Source: an uncultured Clostridia bacterium (GTDB lineage: Bacteria; Bacillota; Clostridia; Lachnospirales; Lachnospiraceae). Taken from it: a stretch of DNA of 64,000 bases. The position numbers and the translations under genes are program-made. The DNA is taken from assembly GCA_945915235.1 (NCBI GenBank), contig CAMEEX010000001.1, forward strand, positions 1 through 64,000, given 5' to 3'. Below, one piece after another: positions 23,558-36,200 of this stretch; the first letter of the stretch is position 1; the number at the start of each line of letters is the position of its first letter. Under the pieces are notes generated by a model that was given only the letters and a program-made list of their open reading frames with translations, ran no database searches and was not told the DNA's origin.

Positions 23558-23570
23558 AACTGCGCTTCAA

Positions 23571-23854
23571 GGGCAAACAGGCGGTGAGGCATTGCGGGTG
23601 TATAATGAGCTATATTTATATATATCGGCTCCGTTGTACGAAGCAAGGTGTTCTAAGGACTCTGATAAGTTATGTTGCAGCGTCCGCCACCGAAGCAAAG
23701 CATACTTCCGTGTATGCATCGCTTCTGAACCGGCATCCTTGCCGGTTCTGGCTAGGTTTTGCACAGAGTCCTAAGAACAACTATGCTTCTCCCAAAGTCG
23801 TGATATATAAATATAGCTCATTATACACGGCGAAGTTGTTGAGCCTGTTTTGCC
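23571..23854 (+). repeat. Structured repeat element, copy A (probable ncRNA or structured DNA)
   Basis: Fills most of the 397-bp MBOAT-SGNH gap. A 26-bp perfect inverted repeat (23598-23623 with 23803-23828) closes the element; a further outer stem GGGCAAACAGGC/GCCTGTTTTGCC lies outside an unpaired stretch. Inside are the shared blocks TTGTACGAAG, TTCTAAGGACTCTG and CAGAGTCCTAAGAAC, then two hairpins with loops TTCCGT and ATCCTT. Copies B and C share the core but have different stem sequences that still pair. It begins 13 bp after the MBOAT stop codon. Confidence 0.75.
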
Positions 23855-23954
23855 GGTGAGCTTGTTTTGATGGCAAGATGAAGAATGGCTTAGGCATACC
23901 TTATGTATGGTTAGGGTGTTTGTATAGTAGATTAAAATTTGGTAAGGGAATGGT

Positions 23955-35898: not shown

Positions 35899-36200
35899 GA
35901 TGTTGGGGTCAAATAGGCTTGTTTATGTATTGAATGTATAACGGAATATATTTATGTATATCGACTCCAGTTGTACGAAGTAAGATGTTCTAAGAACTCT
36001 GAAAAATGTTTTCTATAATATACGCCACCGAAGCAAAGCATACCTCCGTGTATGCATTGCTTCTAAAGCAGCGTCCGTGCTGCTTTTGGCTGGGCGATTG
36101 GCAGAGTTCTAAGAACATCTAAACTTCTCACAAAAGTCGCGATATGCATAAACATATTCCGTTATACATAGCAAATTTTTTCCTATTTGACCTCAACATC
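35899..36200 (+). repeat. Structured repeat element, copy B
   Basis: Starts nine bases after the GH1 stop. An outer stem of 19 bp (GATGTTGGGGTCAAATAGG with CCTATTTGACCTCAACATC), an unpaired stretch, a second stem of about 29 bp (ATGTATAACGGAATAT with ATATTCCGTTATACAT, then further inward), then the shared core: TTGTACGAAG, TTCTAAGAACTCTG/CAGAGTTCTAAGAAC and two hairpins with loops CTCCGT and GTCCGT. Relative to copy A the G-C pair in the core stem has become A-T on both sides. The rest of the 435-bp gap has an AT-rich hairpin at 36242-36288. Confidence 0.78.

Follow-up and report, generated by a model that had tools for sequence, protein, structure and literature searches.

Three copies of a TwoAYGGAY RNA in the window

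The window analysed here is a stretch of 64,000 nucleotides from an uncultured member of the Lachnospiraceae (host genome, G000) and contains three copies, A, B and C, of a large structured element. Copy A was first noted at 23571-23854 in a reading made from the sequence only. Sequence, inverted-repeat and fold checks show that the element is real, but that this span is too small, the whole unit being about 300 bp on the minus strand (about 23564-23863). Its ends are placed by analogy with young copies of the genome, 9 nt outside a G[TG]CAAA motif, and no target duplication remains in the flanks of 23564-23863. A left terminal arm (CAAGGGCAAACAGGC, 23568-23582, plus strand) pairs with a right terminal arm (GCCTGTTTTGCCGGTG, 23843-23858, plus strand). 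Two hairpin heads are enclosed by two nested inverted repeats. The outer of these (33 nt, 91%) forms the inner long stem of the unit, with its left arm at 23598-23630, outside the Rfam model, and its right arm at 23796-23828, both given on the plus strand; the inner (19 nt, 89%) lies at 23646-23664/23764-23782. On the plus strand the heads read GCATAC-TTCCGT-GTATGC (23700-23717) and GAACCGGC-ATCCTT-GCCGGTTC (23727-23748). On the minus strand the latter becomes head 1, GAACCGGC-AAGGAT-GCCGGTTC, and the former head 2, GCATAC-ACGGAA-GTATGC, each with an ANGGAN loop. Folding of the minus strand gives -136 kcal/mol, with z = -12.4 relative to dinucleotide shuffles, and z is about -12 whichever strand is folded.

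Copies B and C exist as described previously. The whole unit of copy B occupies 35899-36200 on the minus strand, between terminal repeats GATGTTGGGGTCAAATAGG (35899-35917) and CCTATTTGACCTCAACATC (36182-36200). Copy C (38241-38490, minus strand) retains an intact left terminal repeat (GATTAGGGTGTCAAAACATG, 38241-38260); its right arm is gone beyond about 38490. Just past this lost arm, at 38554-38797, lie four imperfect copies of TCAGGCGGTAATA with a spacing of 73-84 bp. About 340 bp from where copy C is cut off, at 38827-40662, lies an insertion sequence that encodes a DDE transposase (DDE_Tnp_1_6, DUF772) and is bounded by inverted ends of 27 nt (TAAAGGAAGAAGGGGCTGTAAAAAAAC).

All three copies match the Rfam family TwoAYGGAY (RF01731) over its full length on the minus strand, with 104.5 bits for copy A (23633-23796, model positions 1-168), 113.9 bits for copy B (35970-36134) and 107.2 bits for copy C (38313-38478); the gathering cut-off is 43 bits. 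The sequence-only reading had itself named a known Rfam family as a result that would speak against novelty, which is what the Rfam search returns. TwoAYGGAY goes back to a comparative screen of 2010, in which its listed sources are human gut samples, Gammaproteobacteria and Clostridiales (Weinberg, PMC2864571). CsrA binding was proposed from its loops in 2014 (Gardner and Eldai, PMC4333381), so that the resemblance of the minus-strand ANGGAN loops to the CsrA hairpin signature is borne out here and had already been published. A search of the open-licence literature gave no paper describing TwoAYGGAY as mobile, and none giving it an experimentally supported function.

Copies A-C share with TwoAYGGAY the core structure and both GGA heads. 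The published model, however, stops short of the ends of the unit, which is larger, transposes, and has terminal repeats and 7-bp target duplications; the loops here are ANGGAN rather than strict AYGGAY (AAGGAT and ACGGAA in copy A), the Y positions not being strictly pyrimidine. The RNA family and the proposal of CsrA binding are already known; what is new is that a MITE-like element, which makes 7-bp target duplications and has headless siblings, carries the family as its cargo.

Architecture of the complete unit

The host genome holds at least 49 copies. Rfam reports 47 matches, all full length; a copy on contig C169 is missed by that search, and a region of the same architecture (C11:4486-4792) is not called. 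The RF01731 model covers only the centre of a unit of ~300 bp, the ends of which are terminal inverted repeats of the GATTAGGGTGTCAAAAC type. Pairing extends about 67-75 nt past the model on both sides in nearly every copy with enough flank, the exceptions being copy C and a few decayed copies. Outside the core there is a 28-bp stem (TGTATAACGTGTTATATTTATGCATATCG type), followed by an internal loop with about 15 nt on either side and, outermost, a terminal stem GATTAGGGTGTCAAAACATGC/GCATGTTTTGACACCCTAATC, replaced in a subgroup by GATGTTGAGGTCAAATAGG/CCTATTTGACCTCAACATC. The terminal repeats are conserved between copies as GATT[AC]GGGTGTCAAAA (ends also written GATTMGGGTGTCAAAA), with GATGTTGAGGTCAAATAGG as a diverged type. 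Open reading frames of at least 120 amino acids overlap only 3 of the 47 copies, indicating no conserved protein-coding capacity.

The three window copies all follow plus-strand genes, from which a preference for plus-strand transcription had been drawn. The observation holds within the window but not genome-wide: where both neighbours could be seen (39 copies), these are sense-sense to the RNA strand in 12, antisense-antisense in 11 and mixed in 10 and 6, so there is no orientation bias and the apparent preference is an accident of three copies. This bears on the idea that the plus strand is functional, with UCC loops pairing to Shine-Dalgarno sites, or with the palindrome acting as a bidirectional terminator or 3'-end stabilizer of the upstream gene. 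Besides the arrangement in the window, such a role would fit the position of the neighbouring stop codon facing the RNA 3' side, often only 10-20 nt from the unit (about 70-90 nt from the Rfam edge). However, in addition to the unbiased orientation, many units come right after a terminator-like T-run that is separate from them, and the terminal arms contain only TTTT, within the stem. A plus-strand function is accordingly very unlikely.

The element transposes

The earlier account did not include transposition, but the element is mobile, as seen most clearly from 7-bp duplications in a second genus (G200). In the host genome young copies carry direct 7-bp repeats outside the terminal stem (TTAAAAA, ATTTGAT, GATTTTA), some matching at 6 of 7 positions, all in one fixed register. 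No permutation of 1000 was as good, although this offset was chosen post hoc and the result is weaker than that from G200. Because the register had been chosen after looking, it was fixed from the host genome (7 bp, flush with the terminal G) and then tested in G200, the units of which have the same ends (GATTCGGGTGTCAAAAGG). The set comprised 35 end pairs, including five copies that had earlier suggested the same register. Exact target-site duplications are present in 14 of the 35 units, and 22 match at 6 or more of the 7 positions. The mean match is 5.31/7 compared with 3.42 in permutations (s.d. 0.19; maximum of 5000, 4.24; none as good), and flank identity is 0.76 at length 7 against 0.30-0.37 at any other length. 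The preferred target is CTATAAG/CTTATAG, often directly after a T-run.

The copies also fall into subfamilies. Full units of G200 are mutually 87-99% identical. In a congener of the host (G001) most copies are 82-95% alike among themselves, and none exceeds 80% identity to a host copy over a comparable length. A search for positional orthology between the two congeners gave only a few neighbour matches; the elements at these are not each other's closest relatives and are therefore not clearly orthologous copies.

Headless units with the same ends occur at about 183 bp and 85-92 bp in the host genome and at 73-203 bp in G200. Four 106-bp units of G200 have a common deletion junction and 94-98% identity, yet each occupies a site of its own and is flanked there by a 7-bp repeat, perfect or partial. 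Headless units therefore move by themselves, and the heads are not needed for transposition. In a 121-bp unit of G200 (L279, C7:11562-11680) these terminal repeats, flanked by a perfect 7-bp duplication, enclose an unrelated interior; the ends thus mobilize other cargo too.

Duplications, discrete deletion classes and species-specific subfamilies together argue for a transposing element instead of vertically inherited RNA genes, and its MITE-like character is well supported. That TwoAYGGAY is an ordinary, immobile small RNA or cis-regulatory RNA family might be suggested by its Rfam type, 'Cis-reg', and by its strong structure and covariation. Against this are, besides the terminal repeats and the features just listed, the few neighbour genes common to congeners and the inconsistent orientation. 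The target duplications in G200 rule out immobility as a complete account, and we regard this explanation as extremely improbable.

No transposase was found between matching ends in the host genome or in G200, in either of which the partner may be diverged or absent, and a check of single ends in G200 for an autonomous partner gave only a 38-bp remnant and an isolated end. In another genome, G005, the units (L155-L169) end in AACTTCCCACACCG-type repeats and have no clear target duplication. In other genera, TwoAYGGAY copies of G339 (L179-L182) and G009 (L170-L172) have wholly different outer stems, sometimes very long and GC-rich, which are near-perfect and vary between copies yet remain paired.

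Pairing of the arms

The compensated stems noticed in three copies are upheld far beyond them. In 44 aligned copies of the host genome, 61 of 82 pairs show changes on both sides, and 97% of cells are paired, against 85.6% in shuffles and 35-42% when slid; all five measures beat all 500 shuffles as well as the slid controls. This compensation had been read as selection on folded RNA or DNA. The compensation is real, but that of the arms does not by itself demonstrate selection on RNA. Where selection acts on pairing in RNA, G.U intermediates are expected to outnumber A.C on the RNA strand. With 109 copies in a strand-neutral alignment, the counts are 143 G.U and 159 A.C mismatches. An apparent excess of G.U over A.C (86 vs 32) in the RNAalifold structure was rejected as strand evidence on this basis; that count is biased, as the choice of one column pair came from the folding and many cells are shared by descent. 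The arms of headless units are still paired, so their compensation does not require the RNA heads. Template-switch correction of palindromes is an established mechanism, and maintenance at the DNA level, for instance by such correction, would fit the arm pairing better than selection at the RNA level.

The heads and CsrA

Counted by position, two A-N-G-G-A heads are present in 46 of the 47 host copies despite differing stems (11 and 5 stem sequences for the two heads). Across 93 scored heads A, G, G and A are invariant, but three different bases occur at one N position and four at the other; the 93-head set requires GGA, of which the count by position is independent. The distance from GGA to GGA ranges from 27 to 29 nt, with 28 or 29 in nearly all cases. 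In head 1 there are no changes in 176 at A, G, G and A, whereas the N positions have 31 in 88 and the remaining unpaired sites 29%. The G200 heads are CAGGATG and CAGGGATG, and their region accounts for 4 of the 267 departures from consensus where 37 are expected, with 4 singletons against an expected 12.2 (p = 0.004). One head lacks GGA in some genera (G265, G009). These heads match the CsrA binding pattern, which is ACANGGANGU, and the CAGGAUG repeats that CsrB carries. Since transposition does not depend on the heads, they must be conserved for another purpose, for which we infer CsrA binding to be the best candidate.

The host genome has three CsrA-domain loci, one of which is canonical (L4/R6/R44) and adjoins fliW; two of the three genes lie beside flagellin genes. 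Among 397 genomes of the family CsrA is present in 61 of 64 element carriers and in 147 of 333 others (Fisher p = 6.5e-16, in a test that ignores phylogeny). CsrA and flagellin are, however, confounded in this set, 206 genomes having both, 182 neither and only 9 one alone. Carriers without CsrA are found: the draft assemblies G001 and G192, in which flagellin is present, and the closed genome G343, which has one element copy and neither CsrA nor flagellin. Genomes without CsrA or flagella might also be free of the element for other reasons.

At one host locus (C54:9961-12139; L072, L028) 2.2 kb hold a TwoAYGGAY unit together with genes for flagellin and a CsrA-domain protein and an integrase-like reading frame. 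One host copy of the element is about 1.2 kb away from one of the csrA genes.

These data can also be read as a purely selfish MITE, the heads of which are passengers or a DNA feature (a cruciform, or an aid to replication or transposition efficiency) with no CsrA role, the correlation with CsrA reflecting shared ancestry of flagellated lineages. The inseparability of CsrA and flagellin would agree with this, as would the absence of promoter, orientation and wobble-pair signals: there is no sigma-70-like enrichment upstream and no promoter signal on either flank of the unit. Host head stems contain 462 Watson-Crick pairs, one G.U, one A.C and one other, which fits template-switch correction better than slow RNA evolution through G.U. 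On the other hand, headless minis transpose, so that mobility does not need the heads; within one loop the N positions vary but A, G, G and A do not, which is the pattern of CsrA specificity; and private mutations are depleted in the heads. The selfish explanation is doubtful, if a serious one.

We consider it probable that a non-autonomous, MITE-like element with a TwoAYGGAY centre has inserted as copies A-C and acts as a CsrA decoy; judged from the sequences, a decoy role for the heads is plausible. The inverted-repeat ends would be used by a putative transposase that duplicates 7 bp of AT-rich target, of which the ends and the duplication are seen in the genomes. The centre, when present, is the TwoAYGGAY RNA with two ANGGA-loop hairpins, CAGGAUG-like in G200. 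When transcribed, the minus-strand RNA may be bound through its two heads by a host CsrA dimer, and about 100 potential decoy sites would be scattered over the genome. Tentatively, the element might even be a mobile CsrA sponge, multiplying paired CsrA-binding hairpins, with its own transposition retuning a regulator that controls motility and metabolism globally.

Comparison with known systems

Bacterial MITEs and small mobile intergenic palindromes include ERIC, Correia/NEMIS, RUP and bcr1. As in other bacterial MITEs (reviewed in PMC2229807; PMC10969869), the element is short, non-coding and present in high copy, with inverted-repeat ends, a target duplication of fixed length and internal deletion variants. 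It differs from them in its conserved two-headed centre of CsrA-type RNA and its long compensated arms. REP/BIME sequences do not fit, being palindromes of 20-40 nt as against a unit of about 300 bp with 7-bp duplications. The CsrA-sequestering RNAs CsrB and RsmY similarly have multiple GGA hairpin loops and paired sites, which the CAGGAUG-like heads of G200 resemble, and here too the host encodes CsrA. Unlike these RNAs, the element has two sites per unit, about 50 dispersed loci, a mobile carrier and no promoter signal seen. RNAs of the CsrB/RsmY type are known only from Gammaproteobacteria (PMC4333381).

The ride in a transposing element explains both the copy number and the patchy distribution of TwoAYGGAY, and cautions that covariation and family size alone are no proof of a host RNA gene. 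If the heads bind CsrA, mobile elements would spread decoys for a global regulator, and the coexistence of headed and headless versions in one genome provides a natural control.

No match to the element was found among plasmids, and a pattern scan of genome contigs returned only one Prevotella record, without an RF01731 match. Three unannotated 'Bacteriophage sp.' contigs from faeces match the element, two of them confirmed as RF01731 (MT836195.1 and MT837682.1; L216, L217; human faeces); these TwoAYGGAY-bearing contigs may be host DNA.
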